From positions 1 through 30,873 of the IMG/VR virus record IMGVR_UViG_3300009311_000016: a stretch of 30,873 nt of DNA; one strand, written 5' to 3'. This document shows, one piece after another, positions 256 through 17,770 of the stretch (position 1 is the first letter of the stretch; each line of letters opens with the position of its first letter). The notes beneath the pieces were generated by a model, which did no database searches, was not told the origin of the DNA, and saw only the letters and a list, made by a program, of their open reading frames with translations. The translations under genes were made by a program, and so were the position numbers. The stretch comes from a virus.

Positions 256-513
256 ATGGTTGCAGAGGAAGTGACGGTTGACGAGATAGTAGGCATCATC
301 AAGAAGTACAACCTGTGGTGGCAGGTGTCACCGAGGACGGACCCGGCGGGGCGGGACGATGCGGCGGTAAGGGCGTCGGCGATGAACGGATTGCTGGTGA
401 ACGTCTGCCGTGATGTAGCGGCGCTCCAGAGGTCGAGGATGGCCGGGGAACTGGTTGAGTCGGACATTGAGGAGCACCTGGGGATACCGATGGTAAAAGA
501 GGGTAGCGGATGA
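256..513 (+). CDS. hypothetical protein upstream of TerL (possible small-terminase position)
   Basis: 85 residues. I chose ATG 256 because AAGGAG at 242-247 sits 8 bases before it; the frame extends back to 205 without a better site. The protein is mostly helical by composition, with an acidic N-terminus (MVAEEVTVDEIVGIIKKY) and a second charged helix near residues 50-75. No helix-turn-helix or other family signature is obvious. Its TGA (511-513) overlaps the terL ATG (510) in an ATGA arrangement, so the two are translationally coupled. Small-terminase genes commonly occupy this position, but nothing in the sequence proves that role. Confidence 0.7.
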   Translation: MVAEEVTVDEIVGIIKKYNLWWQVSPRTDPAGRDDAAVRASAMNGLLVNVCRDVAALQRSRMAGELVESDIEEHLGIPMVKEGSG

Positions 514-1946
514 AGCCGATAGAGGTACCGGTCCAGGACTATACTGAAGAAGTGCTGGAGCTTCAGAAGCTGGGTCAGACGAGGCCGGACTTATGGATAG
601 AACAGGTGTTCCGGTGTCGGTTGTGGGGGAAGCAGGCAGAGGTAGCCCGGAGCGTCATGGAGAATACGAGGACTGCCGTGAGGAGCTGCTCGGGTAGTGG
701 CAAGAGTTTCATCGCGGCGAGGGTAGCCCTGGCGTTTCTCCACAACTTTGAGCCGAGTACAGTCATATCGACGGCGCCGACATTCAGGCAGGTTGAGCTC
801 ATACTGTGGCGTGAGATTGCTGCGGCGCAGGGTCAGGCGAGCATACGTCTTGGTGGGGATTTGACGAATGTCCGCCTGGACATTACGGAAAACTGGTTTG
901 CTGTGGGTCTGTCGACGGACCACCCGGAGCGTTTCCAGGGTTTCCATAATGAGAACATTCTGGTGATTGGCGATGAGGCGAGCGGTTTGCCGGAGACCAT
1001 CTACTCTGCACTGGAGAACCCGATGGCAACGGGAAACGCCCACGAGTTGCTCATCGGTAATCCGACGCAGCCGGTAGGACCTTTCCGGGACTGCTTCACA
1101 TCGCCACTCTATCAGACGTTCCACATCTCGGCGTTCGATACACCGAACTTCACCGCCCTGGGGATAACGCGGGAAGACATCAGAGACGGGGCCTGGGAGA
1201 AGAAGGTCGGCGATAAGGTCATGCCCTATCCTGGTCTGGTATCTCCGCGGTGGGTGGCCGAGAGACTCATTGAGTGGGGAGAAGGTTCGTACCTGTGGCT
1301 GGTGTACGTCGAGGGAGAGTTTCCCGGTAGCGGTGTCAACACACTCTTCCACCTGCCTGACGTTGAGGCTGCCGTAGAGAGGACTATCGAGTCGGAAGGC
1401 GACAAGATAAGTAGCCTCGATGTCAGCCGGTACGGTGACAGTGAGACGGTGTTTGCCGTGCGCCAGGGTGACCATGTCTTCGAGATGGCCGCTTGGAGCC
1501 ATGCTGATACCACCCATACCGCCGGCCGGACGGCCCGGCATATCCGGTTGAATAATCCGACGTACAACTTCGTCGACTCGGTCGGAGTCGGCGGTGGCGT
1601 TGCCGATATGCTCAAAGCCGAGGACATTTCGATAACCGACTTCAATGCCGGGGCGGTGGCGGTCGATAAGGAAAGGTACGGCAACCGGCGGGCCGAACTC
1701 TTCTGGTATCTTTCACGGAAGTTTGTCGAGGGTACTATTGATATACCTGATGATGGCAAGCTCAAGAGCCAGCTCTGCGACATTCGGTACCGCTATGACC
1801 AGAGGGGCAGAATGTGGATTGAGACGAAGGAAGAGGCCAAGGCGCGGGGCAGCCGGTCGCCGGACCGGGCGGACGCACTGATGATGACTTACGCTCCCGC
1901 GAAGTCGCGGGGTAAAAAGGGTAGACCCAATCAGAAAATATACTAA
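510..1946 (+). CDS. terL: terminase large subunit (DNA-packaging ATPase/nuclease)
   Basis: 478 residues, normal length for TerL. It drives DNA into the procapsid through the portal and cuts the concatemer. The N-terminal ATPase domain shows Walker A SCSGSGKS (59-66), Walker B ILVIGDEA with D155/E156 (150-157) and a motif III-like LIGNPT (181-186). The C-terminal RNase H-fold nuclease shows three acidic positions in the expected order: D304 in SLDVS, D356 in FVDSVG, and D452/D455 in SPDRADALMM. The basic tail (RGKKGRPNQK) is typical. It overlaps the preceding small ORF by an ATGA and is followed 20 bases later by a virion-like gene. The 316-aa opposite-strand open frame inside it is a shadow. 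Identification is firm; the packaging strategy (headful or cos) cannot be told. Confidence 0.96.
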   Translation: MKPIEVPVQDYTEEVLELQKLGQTRPDLWIEQVFRCRLWGKQAEVARSVMENTRTAVRSCSGSGKSFIAARVALAFLHNFEPSTVISTAPTFRQVELILWREIAAAQGQASIRLGGDLTNVRLDITENWFAVGLSTDHPERFQGFHNENILVIGDEASGLPETIYSALENPMATGNAHELLIGNPTQPVGPFRDCFTSPLYQTFHISAFDTPNFTALGITREDIRDGAWEKKVGDKVMPYPGLVSPRWVAERLIEWGEGSYLWLVYVEGEFPGSGVNTLFHLPDVEAAVERTIESEGDKISSLDVSRYGDSETVFAVRQGDHVFEMAAWSHADTTHTAGRTARHIRLNNPTYNFVDSVGVGGGVADMLKAEDISITDFNAGAVAVDKERYGNRRAELFWYLSRKFVEGTIDIPDDGKLKSQLCDIRYRYDQRGRMWIETKEEAKARGSRSPDRADALMMTYAPAKSRGKKGRPNQKIY

Positions 1947-5993: not shown

Positions 5994-6171
5994 AAACCTT
6001 ACGCATGAAGAGCTGGATAGCGAAGTAATGGAAGCTCTGGCTGACTACGAGAAGGCTCAGAAGGCAAAGGGCGGGGCCCGGAGTGCCTTGAGTGCCTTCA
6101 CGGAAAAGCTCAGCCGTAAGCCCAAGGTAAATCTACCCGTATTGCAAAGAGGACAGCGAGGGCAGCAGTGA
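5986..6171 (+). CDS. small hypothetical protein between portal and giant gene
   Basis: 61 residues from GTG 5986, which overlaps the portal stop by 8 bases and follows a GGGAGGTGGAGG ribosome site. The N-terminal half is acidic and helical (HEELDSEVMEALADYEKAQ); the C-terminal half is basic and ends QRGQRGQQ. Its TGA overlaps the GTG start of the 2218-residue gene, so translation of the giant protein is probably coupled to it. No family is recognised. Confidence 0.75.
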   Translation: MVENLTHEELDSEVMEALADYEKAQKAKGGARSALSAFTEKLSRKPKVNLPVLQRGQRGQQ

Positions 6172-9100
6172 CACTACCAACCCACGTAGTAGAAATTGAC
6201 CCGGCGAGAAAAGCGGCAGAGGCTCAGAGGGCGCTATCGAAGAAAAAGAAGCCGGCGGCGGAGCAGGAACCGGAGATTAAGATAGGTCCTGAGGGCGAAG
6301 TCGTCCCTGAAGTCAGCTGGCTTCGGCAGCCCGAGAAGAGGGCCAGGTGGGCAGAGAGATGGAGAGCGGAAAGAAGGCCGACTGCCGAGGAACCGGCGGT
6401 TGGTCCGCCCCTGGTTGCTGTGCCCGAACCCCTTTGGGGCGGTGGCGGCGGCATCAGTGAACCGGGGGAAGGTGCCGAGCAGCCGCCAGTCGTACCAACC
6501 GAACCTGACTTGCCTACCAGAGCACGTGAGGCCCTGACTGAGGTCTTCCCGGAGAGAGACGTAGAAGAGCTCGTGCTTGACCTGGAGAGTGCCTATGCCC
6601 GTATCGCTGAGATTGCGTCGACTCTCGAAGGCGTAGTGCCGCCGTTTGAGAAGCAGCCCATGGAGATAGAGCGGGCCGGTCTTGAAGCTGACCTTGACAA
6701 GTTTTTCATGGCGATATTCGAGTACGGTCGGACGTCCGGTACCGAGTCCCTCCTCCGTGCTATGGGAGCTACCAGGGAAGAGGTTGAAGGCTTCTTTGCC
6801 GTAGCAAAGCAGGCCATACCGGAAGAAGGCTCACCCGTTGAAATGGAGACTGTGGACGGTGAGATAGTCCACGCGACCATCTTCCCGGACTTCTCCGTTT
6901 CTGTCGAGGGCCGCATTGTCGGCAGGTTTGACCCGAGCACTGGAGATTGGGAGGAGCAATACGTCCCGACATCTCGGAAGGAAGCGTGGGAGCGTTATCA
7001 GGTCCGGCTTGTCGAGGTCGCCAATGAGTATGAGGACGTGGCCGACTGGACGCGGAAAGGATGGGAGGATAGGCGGAAGCAGAACCCCGAGAGAGTGCAG
7101 GCTTGGTGGGATGCCAAGAATAAGGCTTGGGACGAATACCTGGTAGAGTACGGTCTGACCTTCGGCGCTTTGTCATTCAGGAAGTTACTGGCTCCGGCGG
7201 CGGAGTGGGGAGAGAGGTATCTTGGTCGGCCCTGGGAAGTCCTGCTTATGGAGGTTGCCGCTCGTACGGCGCAGGCCAACAATGCCATCAACAGGGCGTT
7301 GGGTATGGAGGAGTTTGGAGCTAACCTCGACGAGGAAATCCAGGCTGTCCGCCAGATGGACGAGTTGTATGAGACATACGGCTGGCAGGCCATCTTTGCC
7401 GATGAGGTACATGGGGTGTGGGAAGACTTCAAGGAAGTTGCCGAGGAGAAACGTGGTACTGGCGGTTTCCTTACTGCGCTGGAATGGGCCAATCCTGTCT
7501 ATCTTATCCCGATAGGCCGATTTTTCGGGTGGGGTTCAAGGCTCTCCAGCAGGGTGCCGGTGATCGGCAAGGGTATGGAGCGCACCGCAGCCGCCGTGCA
7601 GTATCTTGAGTTGCAGGCCGGTAAAGCCATAGCATACCCGATTGTGAAGACACTCCGAGCTCCCGGGCGGGTACTGGAGAATGTAGGCGAGAAGCTCGGC
7701 AAGAAGTATGTCCAGCAGTCCGTCAAGAGGAGCAGGTACCTGGAGCTCGCTATCGACTTGCCCGCCAATGAAGAGCTGCTCAATGGGGTCTTGGTCGATA
7801 ACTGGATGAAGAGGGTTATCATCAATGCCTCGAAGGTCAAGCCGGTAAGGGTGGGTGTCGAGAAGGCACTCGGCTGGCGAATACTCGTCGAGCGGCAAGG
7901 TACTCTCATTGATGACATCGTTGGTCGTGGTGCTGTTGTTCATGCCGAAGTAATGAGACGCGGGCCCAATGTGGCTAGGGTCAAGGTCAACGAACTCCGC
8001 AGCCTAGTGAAGGACCCGGTCAAATACTTCGGCTTCGATGACGCAGCCTTCTCTACCAGCATGGCCAAGCGTTTAAGGAAAGGCGAGACGGTGACTCCAG
8101 AGGTCGGCACACTGGAGCACGTCTTCACCAGACCGGAAGCCTACAACTGGAAAGGCATGGACTTGGGGCTGGAGTATGTGACTCGTGTCCACGAGGTCAA
8201 TACCCAGGTGCTCAACTTCCTCAAGAAGCAGGGCGTCCCGCCTGAGGGTGTGCTCGAAGACTGGTGGATACACCGGGTGGTAACAGGCAGGGTGGATGCC
8301 GAGGGGGAGCTGCTCGCTCTCCGTGGACGGCCCGGTCGTGGTGGCTTTGCCATCGGCAAGCGAGCGTCCTATGACTTCAAGAGAAAGGCTCCCACGATGG
8401 CTGAGGGCATGGCGTGGGGGGTCAAGTACAGCCCGAACATTGAGGACTCCGTCGGTACATACATTCAGGAAGCGTATAAGAAGGTAGCCGACCATCGGTT
8501 TATTGACTATGTGGCGACGTTCCCTGAGATTAGTGCCGTCACGCCTGCGGAGCGTTTCGTCAGCCAGTTCCCCGAGTTGGCGGCAGAAGTCGTGCAGACA
8601 GCCAAGCTCAAGGCCGATGCGGAGATATTCCGGGGCCATATTCAGAAAGCGATTGAGGGCTGGCGTCCAAACAAGCAGACACTCAATGCCATTGATAGGC
8701 GCTTCCCACAATGGAGTGCTGAGTTCCGCCGTCTGATAGCCAAGCCTGCCCAGGTCGAGGAGGAGTTGCGAAAGCTACTACTCCAAAACAGGAGGATAAT
8801 CGACGACCTTCAGAAGCGCCTTGTCGTTGCCGAGAAGGTTGACGTCCGGGCCACTGCCGAACGTGCGCGCCAGGAAGGTTACCGCATGGCTCGCCAAGAA
8901 GTGCCTCCAGACTTCAAGCTGCGTGAGGCTTTCGAGGTCATGGACCATAGCGATAAGCTGGCCTTTCGAGAGGCTATGGAAGGGCAGATAGTCGACCTTG
9001 ACCAGTTGTTTGCTGAACAGGCTGCGGAACTAGAGGTGCTGTCGTCTTTCCTGAAGGACGATGTACTCTGGCACCATCAGATGATGCTCGGGCGGCGTAA

Positions 9101-12100
9101 GGTAGGGTGGGCATATTTCTTCGGTAAGAAAGAGGGTCTGCTCCGTGAGACAATCACGGTAAAGGAAGCGCAGGCGCTCCTCGGACGGGATACGCCCGTG
9201 GGCTGGGCTCTCGATGCAAAGGGTCGTGTCAAGACTGATGTTCTACTGCCCGATGTGGTCGAGCGCCTGGAAGATACACTCGGTATAAAGATAGGCACGG
9301 CTGACGACTTCGTTGAGCGGCTGGTCAAGGCTAATGAGATGGAGAACACCGTCGCTGACCTTGATTTGCTCATGGGCATAAGCAAGGAACGGATGCAAGC
9401 CGTCGAGCGCATGATACACATACTCGACGATGTGACCGTGAAACCTGGCCAACTTGCTGAGTTCAGACCGATAGAGCCCGAACCGACTGTGCCAAAGGCC
9501 GAACCTGGTATGCCGGAGGCCGGACTCCAGAGGGACATCTTCGGCTACGAGCATCCGGTCTACCCAAAGGGTAAGGGTGAGGTCACACAAATCAGCATGG
9601 ATGACGCTGTTAAGCTGGCCAAGGCGTATGATGACGCCGGGCTTCCTCCTCCTCGGGACGTGGTTATCAAGCCTAAGATTGAGGGTGTGCCGGAGTTGTC
9701 AGCAGCGACGAGCTTCGAGAGAATTACATTGAAGGTCCCGTCTGAGCTCACTGAGGCGCAGAGGAAAGCTGCGCTCAAGAAGCTCAAGGTAGATGTCGGT
9801 GACCTGCTCAATACAAGGAAAGCCAGGCTTGCTCTGGTAAAGGCCAGGAAAGCAAAGGAGATGGCCATGTCCAGGCAGCCGCAGATTGGCGAGGGCTACC
9901 TGATGCAGCCGTTCGCCGGCGGTAAGATATACGAGCGGACATTCATCGACTCTTTCAACAGGTTCTTCGGACATGAGGGCGGGCTGCCGGGACTGACGGT
10001 TGTCGCGGATACTGCGGGCATACTGCGAATTACTAAGGCGGCGCTGGACTTCTCTATCATGTCCATTCAGGGATTGCCGGCGTGGGGTATTGCTCACGCC
10101 TATATGGTTACTAACCCTGCAATCGGCTCGAAGCTGATGGCTTCATGGTACAAAGCCTTCGCTATGTCTATTGAGGCTGCATTTGCTCCGGAGACGATGG
10201 CCAAGTATATGACGAAGCACCAGAAGACGGTCATGCAGCGTGTCAATATGGGTGGCAGTGTGGCCAGCGTGGACTTCTTCGCAACTCTCGAAGCCAGGGC
10301 CGGGCTTGGTGGGTGGGCAGAAAAAGCAATGGGCAAGATACCACTGAGGCCATACCATCGTGCCGAGGCTGCCTTCTTTGCAGGCGGTGAAGTCGTACGT
10401 GACGAGTTCTGGAAGATACTCTCTCCGAAGGCCATCGCTCAAGGAAAAGAGTATGAGTTGGCCCGTTTCCTCGACCGCATTACTGGTATCTTCGACAGCA
10501 AGGCGGCGGGTGTACCTTTATCTGTCCGCCAACTTGAGCAGTCTTTCGTATGGTTCGCTCCCAACTATACAAGGGCTTGCCTCACTGTTGTCGGGGACAT
10601 CTTCAGGGGTGGCTATACAGGCTCAGAGACTCGGAAAGCTCTCGGTGGCCTGATTGCTGCCGGCGCCTCCTACTACACCGGTGTCCAGTATGCCCTTGCC
10701 ACTGCCGAAGGCCAGTCACACGAGGACGCCATGGAGACTGTCCTCGAAGGTTTCGGTGTCGTGAAAGACCCGATTACAGGAGAAACCAAGTGGGCCCCCA
10801 CAGGTCGGTTTATGACTATTCAGGTGGGCAACTACCGTATGGGCGTGGGCGGCTTCTGGTACGGCCTGGTGAGGTTGGCAGGGAACATTATGGCCACGGC
10901 TACGGAGGCTGGCGACCGTGAGCGTGTAGACTTCGTCAAGATTATCAAGGATGGTGAGGCCAACCGCGACAATCCTTTCGTCTACTGGTGGTACACAAGG
11001 TCATCGCCGATAGTAGGCACAGGCATAGAACTGGCGACCGGCAAGGACTTTCTGGGCTATCCTTTGGAGAGCCCGATGGATTACGCCCGGTACGTGGCGA
11101 CACGGTTCGAGCCTATCTGGATGGAGCAAGGCATAAACTGGATGATACCGGGCATGGCCCGTGACCATGAGGTGCCAGAGGATAAGGCGAAGTATCTTGT
11201 GCCTCTGGGCGAGCTCTTCGGTCTGAGGACCTTCCCTGACAGTGCGTGGACTGACTTCTATGACAAGGCCAGCGAACTCATCAAGCACATAGAGAGGAGT
11301 GCGCTTGACCCGAAGCAGGTCGAGGCATGGCAGAGAGGCAATCTGGAGTGGCGCTACCTGACGAAATCCCAGCAGATACAATTATTGTCTCGCTACCCTG
11401 AGCTGCAGGAACTCTACGAGACTGCACAGACAGACAGCTTCGTTAGGGACTCGGAGGAGTGGAAGGCGTGGGGTATGCGGACTGACGAAGAGCAGACTGT
11501 CTACTACGGACGGGGTGCCAGCATAGTCGAGCGTCTGAAGGCGGGCGACCTCAACACCAGGGCTCTCCGGGAGAAGTGGGGAGACGCTGGTCAGAATTAC
11601 GGCGTGGCGCTTGACTCCATAGCTCGGGACCCTCATTACCAGAACATTTACGACTACTTCGAGGAGAAAGAAGCCAACGGTGATAAGTACGGCTTCATGG
11701 ATGACCTGGCTCTCTCGGAGTATGAGTTGCTGATGTTCTCGGACTTCACGGATAGCCATGGCGAACCCGATTGGGATGAGAGAGACCGGCGCATAGATGA
11801 TTTCATCGAGAAGTGGGGCGAGGACACATACCTCCGTATCCGACAGATGTACGCGGACAAGAAGGCGATGGCGGGGCTTGACCCGATGCTCCTCCGTCTC
11901 TCTGACGATAAGGACAAGCTCGGCCGGACATACTGGAGGCTACCACGAGCTCCGTACATTGAGCTCGATGAGAGCGAAGTGCCGGCTGAGTCGGTCGCAC
12001 TCTGGAAGCAGGCTCAAGGGCTGGAAGATAACGAACTTGAAGCCTTCCTGGGCGCCCACCCGGAATTAAATAAGGACTGGCGGGCCGAGTACCGCAAGGC

Positions 12101-12824
12101 CAATCCTGAGCATGATGCCATGTTGTCTCTGTGGGGATACGGTGGCAAGCTTCACAGTAGAGAAGCATATGACCTGGTCCTCAAATGGGCTGGTGAGTTG
12201 GGTATCCCCCTCGCTCAGATAGGTCTTGGTCTACCTCCGGAGAGCCTCATTGACGACTACTTCGGTCTGAATGCCGTCGTGTCTGAACACAGTGGAAATA
12301 GCGCCGAGGCCAAGTTATTCAAGCTCCAGCATCCCCGGTACCTGGAGTGGGGCTTGGAGCAAGGTATATGGAGTGATGACCTGTCAGATGAGAGCGTTGA
12401 GGCGCTGAAACTCAAGGTGGAGATGGGTACATTGCCAGAGGGCTCAGTCGAACGAGCTCAGATGTCAAAGAGGATTGAGGCATACGAGAACGATATGCCA
12501 GAGGCTATGATAGAGACCTATGTCGACTGGTACATGGTCGACCGGTCCGGGTATGAAGATGACTGGTATCTGCTCTCGAATGGAGCATTTTACAAAGAGA
12601 TGGTCAGGAGCGGTATATGGCAGGACCGGGACTTCTCAAAGGTGCCCACTCGTGAGGTCTTCGCTCTCTATGAGGAGTACCAGACTCTCGGTAAGGGTGC
12701 TCCGCGGACTGCCTTCAGGATACTTCACCCTGCGCTCGATAATTGGTTCCATGTGACCAAGGGGTACAAGCTCTTAACTGAGCTTATTGATAAGGCAGAA
12801 TATCTCGCTGCCGAACAGAAATGA
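6168..12824 (+). CDS. giant internal/ejected virion protein candidate, 2218 aa
   Basis: One uninterrupted 2218-residue frame from GTG 6168, overlapping the previous stop. Residues 1-120 are low-complexity (Lys/Glu/Pro-rich with a Gly run), likely a flexible tail. Residues about 120-1000 are mostly charged helices, with coiled-coil-like stretches near 850-1000. Hydrophobic helical segments occur near 1272-1342 and 1478-1515. A segment near 1604-1652 (YTRSSPIVGTGIELATGKD) resembles a recurring motif in very large 'polyvalent' proteins of environmental phages (large polyvalent protein-associated domains). Residues from about 1700 are acidic and Trp/Tyr-rich. I see no peptidase, transglycosylase or tape-measure signature. 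Its place between portal and scaffold/coat fits an internal core or ejection protein that travels with the DNA, as in podoviruses. Function is inferred. Confidence 0.8.
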   Translation: MTLPTHVVEIDPARKAAEAQRALSKKKKPAAEQEPEIKIGPEGEVVPEVSWLRQPEKRARWAERWRAERRPTAEEPAVGPPLVAVPEPLWGGGGGISEPGEGAEQPPVVPTEPDLPTRAREALTEVFPERDVEELVLDLESAYARIAEIASTLEGVVPPFEKQPMEIERAGLEADLDKFFMAIFEYGRTSGTESLLRAMGATREEVEGFFAVAKQAIPEEGSPVEMETVDGEIVHATIFPDFSVSVEGRIVGRFDPSTGDWEEQYVPTSRKEAWERYQVRLVEVANEYEDVADWTRKGWEDRRKQNPERVQAWWDAKNKAWDEYLVEYGLTFGALSFRKLLAPAAEWGERYLGRPWEVLLMEVAARTAQANNAINRALGMEEFGANLDEEIQAVRQMDELYETYGWQAIFADEVHGVWEDFKEVAEEKRGTGGFLTALEWANPVYLIPIGRFFGWGSRLSSRVPVIGKGMERTAAAVQYLELQAGKAIAYPIVKTLRAPGRVLENVGEKLGKKYVQQSVKRSRYLELAIDLPANEELLNGVLVDNWMKRVIINASKVKPVRVGVEKALGWRILVERQGTLIDDIVGRGAVVHAEVMRRGPNVARVKVNELRSLVKDPVKYFGFDDAAFSTSMAKRLRKGETVTPEVGTLEHVFTRPEAYNWKGMDLGLEYVTRVHEVNTQVLNFLKKQGVPPEGVLEDWWIHRVVTGRVDAEGELLALRGRPGRGGFAIGKRASYDFKRKAPTMAEGMAWGVKYSPNIEDSVGTYIQEAYKKVADHRFIDYVATFPEISAVTPAERFVSQFPELAAEVVQTAKLKADAEIFRGHIQKAIEGWRPNKQTLNAIDRRFPQWSAEFRRLIAKPAQVEEELRKLLLQNRRIIDDLQKRLVVAEKVDVRATAERARQEGYRMARQEVPPDFKLREAFEVMDHSDKLAFREAMEGQIVDLDQLFAEQAAELEVLSSFLKDDVLWHHQMMLGRRKVGWAYFFGKKEGLLRETITVKEAQALLGRDTPVGWALDAKGRVKTDVLLPDVVERLEDTLGIKIGTADDFVERLVKANEMENTVADLDLLMGISKERMQAVERMIHILDDVTVKPGQLAEFRPIEPEPTVPKAEPGMPEAGLQRDIFGYEHPVYPKGKGEVTQISMDDAVKLAKAYDDAGLPPPRDVVIKPKIEGVPELSAATSFERITLKVPSELTEAQRKAALKKLKVDVGDLLNTRKARLALVKARKAKEMAMSRQPQIGEGYLMQPFAGGKIYERTFIDSFNRFFGHEGGLPGLTVVADTAGILRITKAALDFSIMSIQGLPAWGIAHAYMVTNPAIGSKLMASWYKAFAMSIEAAFAPETMAKYMTKHQKTVMQRVNMGGSVASVDFFATLEARAGLGGWAEKAMGKIPLRPYHRAEAAFFAGGEVVRDEFWKILSPKAIAQGKEYELARFLDRITGIFDSKAAGVPLSVRQLEQSFVWFAPNYTRACLTVVGDIFRGGYTGSETRKALGGLIAAGASYYTGVQYALATAEGQSHEDAMETVLEGFGVVKDPITGETKWAPTGRFMTIQVGNYRMGVGGFWYGLVRLAGNIMATATEAGDRERVDFVKIIKDGEANRDNPFVYWWYTRSSPIVGTGIELATGKDFLGYPLESPMDYARYVATRFEPIWMEQGINWMIPGMARDHEVPEDKAKYLVPLGELFGLRTFPDSAWTDFYDKASELIKHIERSALDPKQVEAWQRGNLEWRYLTKSQQIQLLSRYPELQELYETAQTDSFVRDSEEWKAWGMRTDEEQTVYYGRGASIVERLKAGDLNTRALREKWGDAGQNYGVALDSIARDPHYQNIYDYFEEKEANGDKYGFMDDLALSEYELLMFSDFTDSHGEPDWDERDRRIDDFIEKWGEDTYLRIRQMYADKKAMAGLDPMLLRLSDDKDKLGRTYWRLPRAPYIELDESEVPAESVALWKQAQGLEDNELEAFLGAHPELNKDWRAEYRKANPEHDAMLSLWGYGGKLHSREAYDLVLKWAGELGIPLAQIGLGLPPESLIDDYFGLNAVVSEHSGNSAEAKLFKLQHPRYLEWGLEQGIWSDDLSDESVEALKLKVEMGTLPEGSVERAQMSKRIEAYENDMPEAMIETYVDWYMVDRSGYEDDWYLLSNGAFYKEMVRSGIWQDRDFSKVPTREVFALYEEYQTLGKGAPRTAFRILHPALDNWFHVTKGYKLLTELIDKAEYLAAEQK

Positions 12825-12905: not shown

Positions 12906-13649
12906 ATGTTGGACGAAACCAAACCTGATGACCGGGACACTTCTGATACACAGGAGCCTTCTGGTGAGAAGGAGGGCGGTACTTCGACGCCTGCCGCATC
13001 CAAAGAAGCGGACAAAACAAAGGAGCTCAACGACCGACTTTCATCTCAAGGTCGAGAGGTGAAGGCGCTCGGAGAGCAGGTTACCCAACTCACCACCGAG
13101 AGAGACGCTGCGGTTGCACAGGCCACGACAGCCCGCACGGACGTCGACGATGTCCGCAAGCAAATCCGCGAGCTGAAACGTGAGGGTATCGGTGATAACG
13201 CCGAAGCCATCAAACTGTTTCAGCTTGAGGAGGACCTTGTGGGAAGAGAGCGAACGCTCCGTGATGCTGAAGCGGCCTTGACCACCAGGGAGACGTCTGT
13301 CAAAGCACGAGAGGCTGTTTTGGGTGTTACGGCACTCGGAGCGACCATAACTCGCCTGGCCAAGGACCACGGTGTCACTGAAAAAGAACTGGAAGACACC
13401 GGCATCACAGATGCTACCCAGTTGGAGAAAGTGGCTCGTGTGATAGGGCAACGGGGCAAACCGAGAGACCCTCAGCCCCGGAAAGAAAATGACGCAAAAG
13501 GTGATGACAAGGGAGACGAAACCGAGCCCGCCTCAGTGGATGGTCCAGGTGGGACAGCTACTCCTAGCGTTGAACAACTGGATAATATGTCAGTTGCAGA
13601 CTACTTTGCGGCTAGGCGGAAGCAAGACCCTACTCTAAAAATCGGATAG
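12906..13649 (+). CDS. head scaffolding protein candidate
   Basis: 247 residues, starting after an AAGGGGG ribosome site. The N-terminus (1-45) is acidic and disordered, residues 40-135 form a long coiled coil (LSSQGREVKALGEQVTQLTT), followed by a small helical part and a basic/acidic linker. The C-terminal helix (VADYFAARRKQDPTLK) is the type of positively charged end that scaffolds use to bind coat protein. It stops four bases before the coat start, the classic scaffold-coat arrangement. High charge, helicity and position support scaffold; there is no protease motif. Opposite-strand frames here are shadows. Confidence 0.8.
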   Translation: MLDETKPDDRDTSDTQEPSGEKEGGTSTPAASKEADKTKELNDRLSSQGREVKALGEQVTQLTTERDAAVAQATTARTDVDDVRKQIRELKREGIGDNAEAIKLFQLEEDLVGRERTLRDAEAALTTRETSVKAREAVLGVTALGATITRLAKDHGVTEKELEDTGITDATQLEKVARVIGQRGKPRDPQPRKENDAKGDDKGDETEPASVDGPGGTATPSVEQLDNMSVADYFAARRKQDPTLKIG

Positions 13650-13653
13650 GTAA

Positions 13654-14760
13654 GTGACACAGACTCTTATTACTCCTAGCATTGTAGCGAAAGAGGCCCT
13701 GCTCCAGCTCGAAAACAACACGGTCATGGCCAATCTCGTTCACAGGGACTTCTCCAAAGAGTTCAAGAAGGTTGGTTCCACAGTCACCATTCGCAAGCCG
13801 GCTACTTTCACTGCAACTGCGGTCTCGTCCACAGTAGCAGTGCAGGAAGTCGTTGAGGGAAGCGTCCAGGTCGTACTCAACCAGCTCCTCGATGTCTCCG
13901 TAGAGGTTACGGCAAGCGAGTTGACCCTGCAAATCGTCAGCTTCTCCGAGCAGGTCATCCGGCCTGCCATGATTGCCCTGGCTGACAAGGTGGATACACT
14001 GCTCACGGCCCTCTTCGTTGACATCGCAGGCCATTCGGCGGTATCGTCCACTGCTGCGGTGAGTGACGTCGCCAACCTGAGAGCTCAGCTCAATATCCAG
14101 AAGGTCCCGTTCTCTGAGAGACGTGTGGTACTGCACCCGGTCACAGACGCCAGGTACGTCCCCCTGGACTCCTTCCTCAACGCTGACAAGCGCGGAAAAC
14201 CCCTCACCATCGACGATGCTTGGCTCGGTCGTGTCCTGGGTATGGACTTCTACGTTGACCAGAATATCGCCACTCACACCAGCGAGGTCGTGGATACGGC
14301 CGGTGCCATGAAGGGTGCGGCTGCTGCGGCTGCTACGGCGGCTACGGTGGACGGCCTGACCGACAATGAGGTCATCGCTGCGGGCGACGTGTTCAAGGTT
14401 GCCGGAAACGACCGGGGCTATCTCATCCTCACCGGTGGTACGGTAGCATCCAACACGGCCACAATCACCTTCACCCCTGCCGCGACTGGTGCCTTTGCCG
14501 ACAACGCAGTCGTGACCTTCCAGGCTACTCACGACGCGAGCCTGGCGTTCCACAAGAACGCCTTTGCCCTGGTGTCGGCACCCCTGGAGCCGCCTCTCGG
14601 CGGAGCAAGCTACGCTGTGGAGTCGTACAAAGGGCTGTCCTGCCGGGTCGTGTTCGATTACAACATCACCAGCAAGACGAACCAGATGTCCATCGACTTC
14701 TTGTGTGGTGTGAAGACACTCGACAAGGAACTGGCAGCGCGGTTCTGCGACGCTCAGTAG
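13654..14760 (+). CDS. major capsid protein, P22 coat-like HK97 fold
   Basis: 368 residues from GTG 13654, directly after the scaffold gene. The start (ITPSIVAKEALLQLENNTV, then MANLVHRDFSKEFKKVG, then TVTIRKPATF) is characteristic of the P22 gp5 coat-protein family: N-arm, 'vmanLV.rd...ef.kvGdtv.vrkP'. A domain near 235-300 (Ala/Thr-rich then DVFKVAGNDRGYLILTGGTV) corresponds to the inserted beta-rich domain common in this family. The conserved end includes SYKGLSCRVVFDYNITSK. The protein assembles the icosahedral shell on the scaffold and matures without an obvious propeptide. A 307-aa opposite-strand frame over this gene is a shadow. A stable hairpin follows. Confidence 0.92.
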   Translation: MTQTLITPSIVAKEALLQLENNTVMANLVHRDFSKEFKKVGSTVTIRKPATFTATAVSSTVAVQEVVEGSVQVVLNQLLDVSVEVTASELTLQIVSFSEQVIRPAMIALADKVDTLLTALFVDIAGHSAVSSTAAVSDVANLRAQLNIQKVPFSERRVVLHPVTDARYVPLDSFLNADKRGKPLTIDDAWLGRVLGMDFYVDQNIATHTSEVVDTAGAMKGAAAAAATAATVDGLTDNEVIAAGDVFKVAGNDRGYLILTGGTVASNTATITFTPAATGAFADNAVVTFQATHDASLAFHKNAFALVSAPLEPPLGGASYAVESYKGLSCRVVFDYNITSKTNQMSIDFLCGVKTLDKELAARFCDAQ

Positions 14761-14838: not shown

Positions 14839-16404
14839 ATGCGAATACTATGGCTATCAAACTCGCCATTCTGTAATACCGGCTACGGCCAGCAGACGGC
14901 CACCATCAGTAAGTATCTGAGGGAAAGCGGGCATGACCCGGCTGTCTTTGCCTTTGTCGGACTCCTCGGCAGTATGATTGATTGGGGTCCAATTCCCATC
15001 TTCCCGAATGACAAGGATGACTTCGGCCTTACTCACTGCGAAAAGTATTATGACCATTGGGAAGCCGAGGCTCTGATTACCCTGGTCGATGTATGGGTGC
15101 TCAAGAACCTACCCCCGGCGTTAAAGTGGTTCCCATGGACGCCTATCGACCACGAGCCTATACCACCACTCGTCCGAGATGTACTCAAGACTCATTCCGG
15201 CCTTATCAAGCCGATAGCCATGTCTCAGTACGGCCTAAAGGAGATGAAGAAACACGAAATCGAAGCCTTCTACGTGCCTCATAGCGTAGACTGTGAGAGC
15301 TTCATCGTCTCACCAGAGCGCCGGGCAGCAGCCCGGAAACTCTACGAGTGGGAGAATACCTTTGTCATCGGCTGCGTCGGGACTAACGTGCGAGAACGTA
15401 AGAACTGGCAGGCATCCTTCATGGCTATTCAGAAGTTTGCTAAGAAGCACGATAATGTGGTCATGTACTGCCACACTGATGCCTTCGATGACCGGGGTCG
15501 AAACCTGCACTCTCTAAGGGAATCCCTCGGTATCACCGACTACACTCGGTTCCCCAGCATCAGTGAGATGGCAATAGGCATCAGCAAAGACGCTATGGCC
15601 AGCATGTATAACACTCTCGATGTCTTTCTCCTGCCCAGCAAAGGGGAGGGTTTCGGTATCCCAATCATCGAAGCTCAAGCCTGCGGGGTACCGGTCATTG
15701 TGAGTAACAACACGGCCATGCCCGAGCTCTGCGGTAGTGGCTGGCTCCTGAAGGATATGCGGCCTGAGTACACCATGCAGAACTCATGGGAAGGGGCGGC
15801 CAATCCCGATGAGATTGCCGAGTATCTCGAAGAGGCGTACGCTCTTTGGGAAGACAACGGCGATGCCTGGAAGGCTAAGAGGGCCAAGGCCCGAACCTTC
15901 GCCTTAGATTACGATGACGCTTTGGTCTTTAAGGACTATTGGATGCCGACCTTGGAAGAGATGGGCAGGCTCATCAAAGCTCCGCGGTGCATGGAGGGAC
16001 ACAGGACACAGGACTGGCGGCAGGTCCTTATACCGCCAAGCTGCAAGCCTACGAAGGTGCTTGACATCGGCTGCGGTATCAAGCAATCGTGGCGGCCTCA
16101 ACTGGCACATCTGGGCGAGTACGTCGGCATAGACACGCGCGAGGCAGAGGGCGTCACGGTAATGGATGCTCACAATCTGCGCTACCGGGCGAAAGAGTTT
16201 GGCTTTGCCTGGTGCTGTGATGTGCTGGAGCATGTAGACGATCCTCGTCGGGTGGTGGACGAGGCAAAGAGAGTGGCGAAGCACGGGGTTGTCATCTTCA
16301 CGTCGCCGGCGAGCAAGGACTTCAAGGCTGACCCTGGACACAAGAGGGTTACCAATGTGAAGTACACCATAAACACCACTGGCCAGGGTATGATTATCTG
16401 GTAG
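14839..16404 (+). CDS. glycosyltransferase (GT4/GT-B type) fused to SAM-dependent methyltransferase
   Basis: 521 residues after a good AAAGGAG site. Residues 1-375 are a GT-B glycosyltransferase: N-terminal Rossmann start MRILWLSNSPFCNTGYGQQT, a nucleotide-sugar domain around 175-300 (FVIGCVGTNVRERKNW), and the EX7E motif E270-GFGIPII-E278 followed by EAQACGVPVIVS. Residues about 405-521 are a short class I methyltransferase: motif I VLDIGCG (407-413), a YVGIDTRE strand that would bind the ribose, and CCDVLEHVDDP (about 459-468). The family is retaining glycosyltransferases; acceptor and sugar donor are unknown. It could modify host surface sugars, phage virion proteins or DNA. It sits between capsid and adaptor genes as an insert with its own ribosome site. 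Confidence 0.9.
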   Translation: MRILWLSNSPFCNTGYGQQTATISKYLRESGHDPAVFAFVGLLGSMIDWGPIPIFPNDKDDFGLTHCEKYYDHWEAEALITLVDVWVLKNLPPALKWFPWTPIDHEPIPPLVRDVLKTHSGLIKPIAMSQYGLKEMKKHEIEAFYVPHSVDCESFIVSPERRAAARKLYEWENTFVIGCVGTNVRERKNWQASFMAIQKFAKKHDNVVMYCHTDAFDDRGRNLHSLRESLGITDYTRFPSISEMAIGISKDAMASMYNTLDVFLLPSKGEGFGIPIIEAQACGVPVIVSNNTAMPELCGSGWLLKDMRPEYTMQNSWEGAANPDEIAEYLEEAYALWEDNGDAWKAKRAKARTFALDYDDALVFKDYWMPTLEEMGRLIKAPRCMEGHRTQDWRQVLIPPSCKPTKVLDIGCGIKQSWRPQLAHLGEYVGIDTREAEGVTVMDAHNLRYRAKEFGFAWCCDVLEHVDDPRRVVDEAKRVAKHGVVIFTSPASKDFKADPGHKRVTNVKYTINTTGQGMIIW

Positions 16405-16413
16405 GGGGATACC

Positions 16414-16581
16414 ATGCCGGCTGAGAGCGAAAGACAGAGGAAAGCGGCTGGAATTGCCCTCAGAGCGAGGCGTGGTGAAGTGCCTATGTCGAGCCTGAAG
16501 GGGCCGGCAAAGCAGATGGCGAAGTCAATGGAGATTAAAGAGCTTGAGGACTTCGCTCGTAAGCAGACAGGCGGGAGATAA
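16414..16581 (+). CDS. small DUF3008-like protein, 55 aa
   Basis: ATG 16414 lies 9 bases after the GT-methyltransferase stop, with AGGGGG just before it, and the frame runs to TAA at 16579-16581. The product begins MPAESERQRKAAGIALRARR and later has KQMAKSMEIKELEDFARK. The 'MPAxSxxQRKAxGxALxxxRG ... KxMAKSMxxxELxDFA' pattern is that of small phage proteins of the DUF3008 type. It is strongly basic. Function is unknown in the family; it is often near structural genes. Codon pattern, ribosome site and tight spacing support a real gene despite its size. Confidence 0.8.
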   Translation: MPAESERQRKAAGIALRARRGEVPMSSLKGPAKQMAKSMEIKELEDFARKQTGGR

Positions 16582-16601
16582 CGTCGTGAAGGGAGACGGC
16601 G

Positions 16602-16994
16602 ATGCACCTGATAATGGACGGGCCGTGCAAGAACACGGCACTAATGCGTGACCCCGGGCTCCTCTCCAGGTGGCTCCATGACACCGCTATAAAGGCGGAC
16701 ATGACTCCCCACGGCGAGCCTTTCATTGATGGCTTCGCATGGCCTGGCTCCGATGACAAGGACGCTCTCTCTGGCGTTCAGTTCCTTAAGGAGTCAGCCA
16801 TAATGATACACACCTGGCCTGAAGTACCATACGCTTTCGTTGATGTATTCAGTTGCCGGGACTTCGATGCTCTGACTCTGGAGCGGCATATCAGGGAGAC
16901 GTTGGGGATGGGTCCGGCCAAGCCGCTCATCCTCGAACGGGGAGTAAATCCTACGACGGGCGTCATAGTGTCAACTCGTCTAAGGAGGCCGTAA
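16602..16994 (+). CDS. speD: S-adenosylmethionine decarboxylase-like pyruvoyl enzyme (SpeD family)
   Basis: 130 residues, the length of bacterial type SpeD proenzymes. The core is LKESAIMIHTWPEVPYAFV followed by DVFSC. Aligning to the Thermotoga enzyme puts the cleavage/pyruvoyl serine at S65 (after E64), the processing histidine at H70 and the proton-donor cysteine at C85; the 5- and 20-residue spacings match S63/H68/C83 exactly. The usual His after the serine (ESH) is Ala here. SpeD self-cleaves to make a pyruvoyl group and normally decarboxylates AdoMet for spermidine synthesis; some SpeD homologues act on arginine or ornithine instead. The ribosome site AAGGGAG precedes ATG 16602, and the TAATG overlap couples it to the adaptor gene. 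No spermidine synthase gene is visible in the window. Confidence 0.88.
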   Translation: MHLIMDGPCKNTALMRDPGLLSRWLHDTAIKADMTPHGEPFIDGFAWPGSDDKDALSGVQFLKESAIMIHTWPEVPYAFVDVFSCRDFDALTLERHIRETLGMGPAKPLILERGVNPTTGVIVSTRLRRP

Positions 16995-17770
16995 TGGCGA
17001 TGACTCATACAGAGATGGTAGACCGGATTGAAGAGATACTCCACGATAGCAGCAACGCTATCTGGTCGGCGTCCTTGATTGGAGCTGGTATTACTGAAGT
17101 TCTTAAAGAGATTAGCCGGTACGTGCCGGTGCTTATCAAGGAGACACTCACGACCACCGATGGTGAAAGGACCCTCGACGTGAGTACCTTGGTCGATGTT
17201 ATCGACATCGTAGAGGTCGAGTATAAGGTCGACAAAGACCCGCGTCAGCTCCGTAACATCATCTGGATTGACCTGAATACTATCAGGCTCGACATCGCCT
17301 TCGACTGCGATGGTGGTAGTGCCTACCTCTTCTGCAAGAAAGGACATCGCCTCGACGCAGATTGGGTGGCGAGCACAGTCTACTCACTGACAAACATGGT
17401 CGCTCCCACCACCAAGAACGCCTATCACTATGAGTGTACGACTGCCGGTACCTCGCACAGCTCTGAACCGACCTGGCCCACAACTGTCGGGGATACTGTC
17501 AGCGACGGGAGTGTGACGTGGACCTGCCGGAACGTACCGAGTAACAGTCTGAAGTACGGCCGGGTAGACTTGGAAGACCTGTTTGCTCGGCTCGTGGCGG
17601 CTCGCCTTGCTGAAGCTAAGGGCGTTGACAACATCAACAAGGTGAACGTCGGCGGCAAGGGCGTCATGCGGGACTACGCAGGATGGGCCGGACTCACTCT
17701 GGGGCAGGTCATGGCCGACCTTAAGAAGCTCCGACCGCCAAATCAGAAGGTGTGGTTACCTGACACATGA
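16994..17770 (+). CDS. head-tail adaptor-like protein with an inserted beta domain
   Basis: 258 residues. I chose ATG 16994 because TAAGGAGG (16981-16988) sits 5 bases before it; the frame stays open back to 16853, inside speD. The N-terminal helices (TEMVDRIEEILHDSSNAIW), ERTLDVSTLVDVIDIVEVEY strand pair and C-terminal helices (DLFARLVAARLAEAKGV) suggest a head-tail connector of the gp4/adaptor class. Residues about 120-180 carry a separate module (TVYSLTNMVAPTT, CTTAGTSHSSEPTWPTTVGD), a common beta-rich insert in phage virion proteins, here with two Cys. Its last codons overlap the next start (ATGA). The adaptor role comes from position after capsid genes and secondary-structure pattern. 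Confidence 0.65.
   Translation: MAMTHTEMVDRIEEILHDSSNAIWSASLIGAGITEVLKEISRYVPVLIKETLTTTDGERTLDVSTLVDVIDIVEVEYKVDKDPRQLRNIIWIDLNTIRLDIAFDCDGGSAYLFCKKGHRLDADWVASTVYSLTNMVAPTTKNAYHYECTTAGTSHSSEPTWPTTVGDTVSDGSVTWTCRNVPSNSLKYGRVDLEDLFARLVAARLAEAKGVDNINKVNVGGKGVMRDYAGWAGLTLGQVMADLKKLRPPNQKVWLPDT

Follow-up and report, generated by a model that had tools for sequence, protein, structure and literature searches.

Phages are known to carry homologues of the AdoMet decarboxylase (AdoMetDC) SpeD, among them pyruvoyl-dependent arginine and ornithine decarboxylases, as described for pelagiphage HTVC201P, a Lake Baikal phage and UCP01-04 (PMC9992855), and the pyruvoyl L-arginine decarboxylases termed SpeDA are derived from SpeD (PMC10407285). 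The position of speD beside the agmatinase gene speB is a sign of arginine decarboxylase activity that has been biochemically validated in lineages other than those considered below (PMC10407285). Both phage SpeD and SpeD homologues acting on arginine or ornithine, a shift that a preliminary description of the present DNA had pointed to, are already published (PMC9992855, PMC10407285). The present case stands out by a speD gene located next to the coat gene of P22-coat phages, by Ala and Gly variants at the position after the catalytic serine, and by the likeness of the encoded protein to an agmatinase-linked SpeD type.

The window, meaning the whole 30,873-base stretch analysed, is an IMG/VR record (IMGVR_UViG_3300009311_000016). 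Its reading was confirmed by a near-identical twin record from another UViG, which also has this SpeD and shares 99.9% identity with the window across 15.6 kb. The two show 12 differences, ten of which cluster in 33 bases (13569-13601) towards the end of the probable scaffold gene; this small patch is either hypervariable or misassembled. Genes for a terminase large subunit, a portal (assigned by position), a 2218-residue protein, a probable scaffold and the coat protein are followed by a glycosyltransferase-methyltransferase (GT-MT) fusion, a 55-residue ORF, SpeD, an adaptor-like protein and a large probable tail protein, after which an integrase and a repressor are encoded on the opposite strand (Table 1). 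The phage structural operon of the preliminary description is thereby borne out, by the terminase and P22-type coat matches and a weak adaptor match downstream. The putative portal and tail proteins matched no family in profile searches, the 2218-residue protein between the portal and scaffold genes (6168-12824) had no Pfam match, and the window contained no tRNA genes. The closest cultured capsid relatives, Gordonia, Streptomyces and Vibrio phages, are less than 42% identical. A host link was sought through the capsid gene, with three weak matches (27-32% identity) in 393 Dehalococcoidia-class genomes, and through the GT-MT gene, which at E 1e-40 matched none of 400 Chloroflexota genomes in a search run without a positive control.

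Table 1. Features of the late operon around speD and of the predicted SpeD proenzyme (window coordinates).
Feature	Coordinates	Strand	Basis
Terminase large subunit	510..1946	+	phrog_2, E 3e-34
Probable scaffold	12906..13649	+	Position before coat gene and make-up; matches coiled-coil-like only
P22-type major capsid protein	13654..14760	+	PF11651, E 7e-49; phrog_283
Glycosyltransferase-methyltransferase fusion	14839..16404	+	PF13692 and PF08241; conserved position
Small ORF, 55 aa	16414..16581	+	In many capsid relatives, short ORFs of about this size precede the adaptor gene
Shine-Dalgarno-like AAGGGAG, 6 bases before speD ATG	16589..16595	+	Sequence
SpeD-like pyruvoyl-dependent decarboxylase proenzyme, 130 aa	16602..16994	+	PF02675; PDB 1tlu by sequence and fold
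Predicted chains: beta 1-64, alpha 65-130	within 16602..16994	+	Boundaries inferred from homology
Codons E64-S65, predicted self-cleavage site (S65 to pyruvoyl)	16791..16796	+	Alignment to T. maritima E62-S63
Codon A66 (His in 133/135 homologues)	16797..16799	+	
Codon H70, processing/catalytic histidine	16809..16811	+	Aligned with T. maritima H68; invariant
Codon C85, catalytic cysteine	16854..16856	+	Aligned with T. maritima C83; invariant
TAATG, overlap of speD stop and next start, preceded by AAGGAGG	16992..16996	+	Sequence
Adaptor/head-decoration-like gene, directly downstream of speD	16994..17770	+	phrog_20658, E 1e-13; weak PF24175 SU10_adaptor, E 0.02

The Shine-Dalgarno-like element upstream and the stop/start overlap downstream make speD an integral member of this operon, and the overlap with its AAGGAGG reads as translational coupling to the next gene. 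A recent horizontal gain of speD was considered and is unlikely because its composition (GC 0.56, GC3 0.65) is that of the phage.

The open frame, which has no internal stop, encodes a member of the AdoMet decarboxylase family, well beyond chance: the protein matches PF02675 (AdoMet_dc) at 60.7 bits, where the gathering cut-off is 25 (E 2e-16), the phage family phrog_3125 ‘S-adenosylmethionine decarboxylase’ (E 3e-12) and, by sequence, the Thermotoga maritima AdoMetDC structures PDB 1tlu/1vr7 (E ~1e-6). Its AlphaFold model, built from 43 window and locus sequences with an input alignment that consisted of homologues, reached a mean pLDDT of 93 and a pTM of 0.86, and all five PDB matches of the model at E <0.001 were class 1b AdoMetDC (TM 0.68-0.69 by query length), led by the Thermotoga and Aquifex enzymes. 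The comparison with Thermotoga AdoMetDC that the preliminary description proposed therefore yields the expected fold, as predicted from an alignment of homologues, and a SpeD-like pyruvoyl decarboxylase remains the best description of this predicted enzyme. No close relative was found among 50,697 phage records (best match, 30% identity), and searches of viral contigs with the window protein, with the two related SpeDs described below (L085 and L087) and with the window and L085 sequences aligned together added only the twin and L171, a distant jumbo-phage copy.

The catalytic residues are conserved. E64-S65, H70 and C85 align with T. maritima E62-S63, H68 and C83, without gaps from Ser to Cys; the spacings of 5 and 15 residues and the motif IHTWPE are identical in the two proteins, as had been noted from the sequence. 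Among 50 aligned homologues only the columns of S65, H70 and C85 are invariant, and the window protein keeps these three together with E64 and S57, while the remainder has diverged to 25-37% identity. The Ala that replaces His directly after the serine, already remarked on, is indeed exceptional: 133 of 135 homologues have His at this position, the window has Ala and one related phage (L085) has Gly. In a second related phage (L087:1468-1812, minus strand), HYYNLDG stands in place of HTWPE, with Ser, His and Cys retained, and the predicted structure keeps the AdoMetDC fold (pLDDT 93.6; best PDB matches T. maritima AdoMetDC, E 5e-4).

The best cellular matches of the window protein were SpeDs of Chloroflexota, chiefly Dehalococcoidia (≤37% identity, E 2e-24), belonging to what we call the K-type, a SpeD type found mainly in Dehalococcoidia and Thermodesulfobacteriota. 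K-type proteins are marked by FSC[KR]xFD (FSCKxFD) and mostly HTF, classical SpeDs by FTCG and HTW, and the window protein combines the two, with FSCRDFD as in the K-type and HTW as in the classical type. Counted from the first His, the catalytic Ser lies 63 residues away in the window, 59-63 (nearly all 62-63) in the K-type and 56-58 in classical SpeDs; two classical rows could not be counted, the automatic motif search having misfired on them. The window protein reached 81.7 bits with a K-type model from Dehalococcoidia and no more than 61.5 with classical models, and 69.1 against 56.8 bits when equal-size random sets were used, although selection may account for part of the gap, the K-type set having been gathered by means of an alignment headed by the window protein. 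By profile score and indel, the K-type thus appears to be the best fit. In the NCBI AdoMetDC equivalog TIGR03330 (cut-off 75.65), one classical copy passed with 110 bits, whereas two Dehalococcoidia K-type proteins (71 bits) and the window protein (43.9 bits) fell below. Phylogeny including viral sequences, another of the checks proposed at the outset, decided for neither type, because in maximum-likelihood trees the window SpeD is a long branch, flagged with long-branch warnings, between the K-type and the classical type. A firmer placement was sought by adding or removing divergent viral copies and by adding classical copies from Dehalococcoidia, and the window protein stayed between the types.

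The two types differ sharply in genomic context. Agmatinase (speB) lies within 2 kb of 58 of the 73 K-type loci and of none of the 10 classical loci, whereas spermidine synthase (speE) lies within 2 kb of 8/10 classical and 0/73 K-type loci (Fisher p 1e-6 and 1e-9, values that are too small since related genomes are not independent). Both speB neighbours of K-type genes that were tested pass the agmatinase equivalog TIGR01230. Six of seven Dehalococcoidia-type genomes carry both paralogues, with the classical copy adjoining speE; in the genome loci L172-L251 and L253-L265, the K-type copy of such genomes adjoins agmatinase. This speB linkage, read by the context logic of PMC10407285, leads us to predict that the K-type is a pyruvoyl arginine decarboxylase which annotation misnames AdoMet decarboxylase; the Dehalococcoidia copies are not named in PMC10407285, and the prediction is made here. 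The 274-kb record of Microcystis phage MaAM05 (L089) has a speH-speH-speE-speB cluster with one classical and one K-type SpeD. In a gut ‘Bacteriophage sp.’ record that appears more bacterial than phage (MT839461; L003:1606-3273), one ORF joins a branched-chain polyamine synthase domain (BpsA_C, PF01861) to an entire SpeD domain (PF02675).

We interpret the window gene, with moderate confidence, as a phage auxiliary metabolic gene for a pyruvoyl-dependent decarboxylase of AdoMetDC fold with arginine as its most likely substrate. As part of this explanation, the speB-linked K-type, present in bacteria such as Dehalococcoidia, may well be the ancestor or the closest kin of the protein, with the chances roughly balanced, and it is this closeness that points to arginine. 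The proenzyme would cleave itself between E64 and S65, and S65 would become the pyruvoyl group that forms a Schiff base with the substrate amino acid, L-arginine being the likeliest; with C85 donating the proton, decarboxylation would then produce agmatine. A host agmatinase might turn this into putrescine, from which host SpeD and SpeE might make spermidine, so that polyamine would be raised in late infection. Neither agmatinase (PF00491) nor spermidine synthase (PF01564) had a match in the phage record, in searches whose positive controls were detected. This agrees with the preliminary description, which saw no partner synthase, and means that the host would have to supply the speB or aguAB partner that the window speD lacks as a neighbour. 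Counting against this explanation are HTWPE, which is like that of true AdoMetDC, K-type proteins having mostly HTF, and A66, unusual at a near-fixed position, besides the long branch between the types and the window-led gathering of the K-type set. The substrate, left open in the preliminary description, is therefore narrowed rather than settled, since profiles and indel favour the speB-linked arginine type and AdoMet remains a rival through HTWPE.

A true AdoMetDC, supplying a host spermidine synthase with more decarboxylated AdoMet in the manner of cyanophages and other phages, is possible but rather unlikely. Its HTWPE is identical to that of T. maritima, phage AdoMetDCs of the same fold have been proven functional (PMC9992855), and a position between the types in the trees is compatible with it; moreover, loss of a conserved Pro is described as marking arginine decarboxylases (PMC10407285), and the window keeps P73 of HTWPE, presumably the equivalent residue. 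However, the TIGR03330 score is below the cut-off, which a classical copy passes, the indel and profile scores fit the K-type, and the phage record has no speE.

Action on another amino acid, be it ornithine, lysine or a substrate new to the fold, we consider unlikely. Five phage SpeD homologues decarboxylate ornithine (PMC9992855), and the neighbourhood of the pocket is altered in all three SpeDs of the capsid group (A66 in the window, Gly in L085 and HYYNLDG in L087). Against ornithine, for which nothing specific was seen in the gene context, the window has Glu39, Ser57, Trp72 and Tyr77 at the presumed positions of the diagnostic Gln, Thr, Phe and Tyr of Fig. 8 in PMC10407285; ornithine is accordingly less likely because three of these four ornithine decarboxylase markers appear to be missing if the presumed positions (ITQ, TG, HTF, Y) hold.

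More doubtful again is the view that the protein has lost all decarboxylase activity and is drifting, or has found a new use, in the capsid operon as a pseudoenzyme or a component of the virion, as the long branch, A66 at its nearly fixed position and the site between structural genes might suggest. The retention of S65, H70, C85, E64 and S57 despite divergence argues against drift, as does that of Ser-His-Cys in the very divergent SpeDs of two capsid-related phages, and, being absent from nearly all capsid relatives, the gene does not encode a general virion component.

Among 80 viral records whose coat gene is related to that of the window, 3 have a PF02675 gene (the twin, G024 with L085, and G016 with L087), a lower bound because many of these records are fragments, and the site of the gene differs by phage lineage: between the 55-residue ORF and the adaptor gene in the window, immediately before a small-terminase-like gene in G024, and behind the tail genes in G016. 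Present in so few capsid-related records and at three different places, speD is cargo, an optional metabolic gene and not part of the core. In the nearest relative (L006, coat 72% identical), just a 58-residue ORF lies between the GT-MT fusion and the adaptor gene, and other relatives have genes for GDP-mannose dehydratase, GHMP kinase, cupin, methyltransferase or B12-binding radical SAM proteins in the same interval. This variable cargo region (16404-16994 in the window; equivalents in L009, L011-L013, L016, L018-L020, L023 and L026) lies behind the coat gene and the GT-MT fusion and is apparently a module for virion or host glycans; in some 20 relatives the fusion comes directly after the coat gene, and it is possibly a capsid glycosylation enzyme.

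The suggestion that the phage alters polyamines to neutralise DNA charge at packaging is unsupported here, because near-absence from capsid relatives and the variable cargo site fit an optional metabolic gene better than a packaging part; the paper on SpeD in the virosphere does not mention capsids or packaging (PMC9992855). A further reading, that in a subset of P22-coat phages the pocket was remodelled for a substrate new to the fold (candidate changes are an Ala or Gly following the pyruvoyl serine and the HYYNLDG loop) and that the amine might decorate glycan or virion instead of serving bulk polyamine, given that the cargo region is otherwise filled with sugar- and methyl-modifying genes, strikes us as very improbable.

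The window SpeD adds a divergent, naturally varied copy to the known phage polyamine genes, and its late-operon site would make expression coincide with assembly. Possibly more useful are the two SpeD paralogues of the Dehalococcoidia type, which predict a group-wide pyruvoyl arginine decarboxylase, while the Ala and Gly variants offer a direct test of the near-invariant His after the pyruvoyl serine.

Compared with known systems, the window protein shares with the phage SpeDs of PMC9992855 the class 1b fold, Ser-His-Cys and a single gene without spermidine synthase, but those tested come mainly from marine and freshwater phages, whereas this one belongs to a P22-coat phage, lies beside the coat gene and has Ala after the serine. 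It resembles class 1b AdoMetDC (SpeD/SpeH; T. maritima 1tlu, TIGR03330) in fold, Ser-His-Cys and HTWPE but is 5-7 residues longer than classical copies ahead of the catalytic Ser, with FSCRxFD in place of FTCG and a sub-cut-off TIGR03330 score. As for SpeDA, its nearest cellular type is agmatinase-linked, the context from which PMC10407285 predicts arginine decarboxylase; the window copy differs in its AdoMetDC-like HTWPE and far divergence, with an activity that is predicted only.
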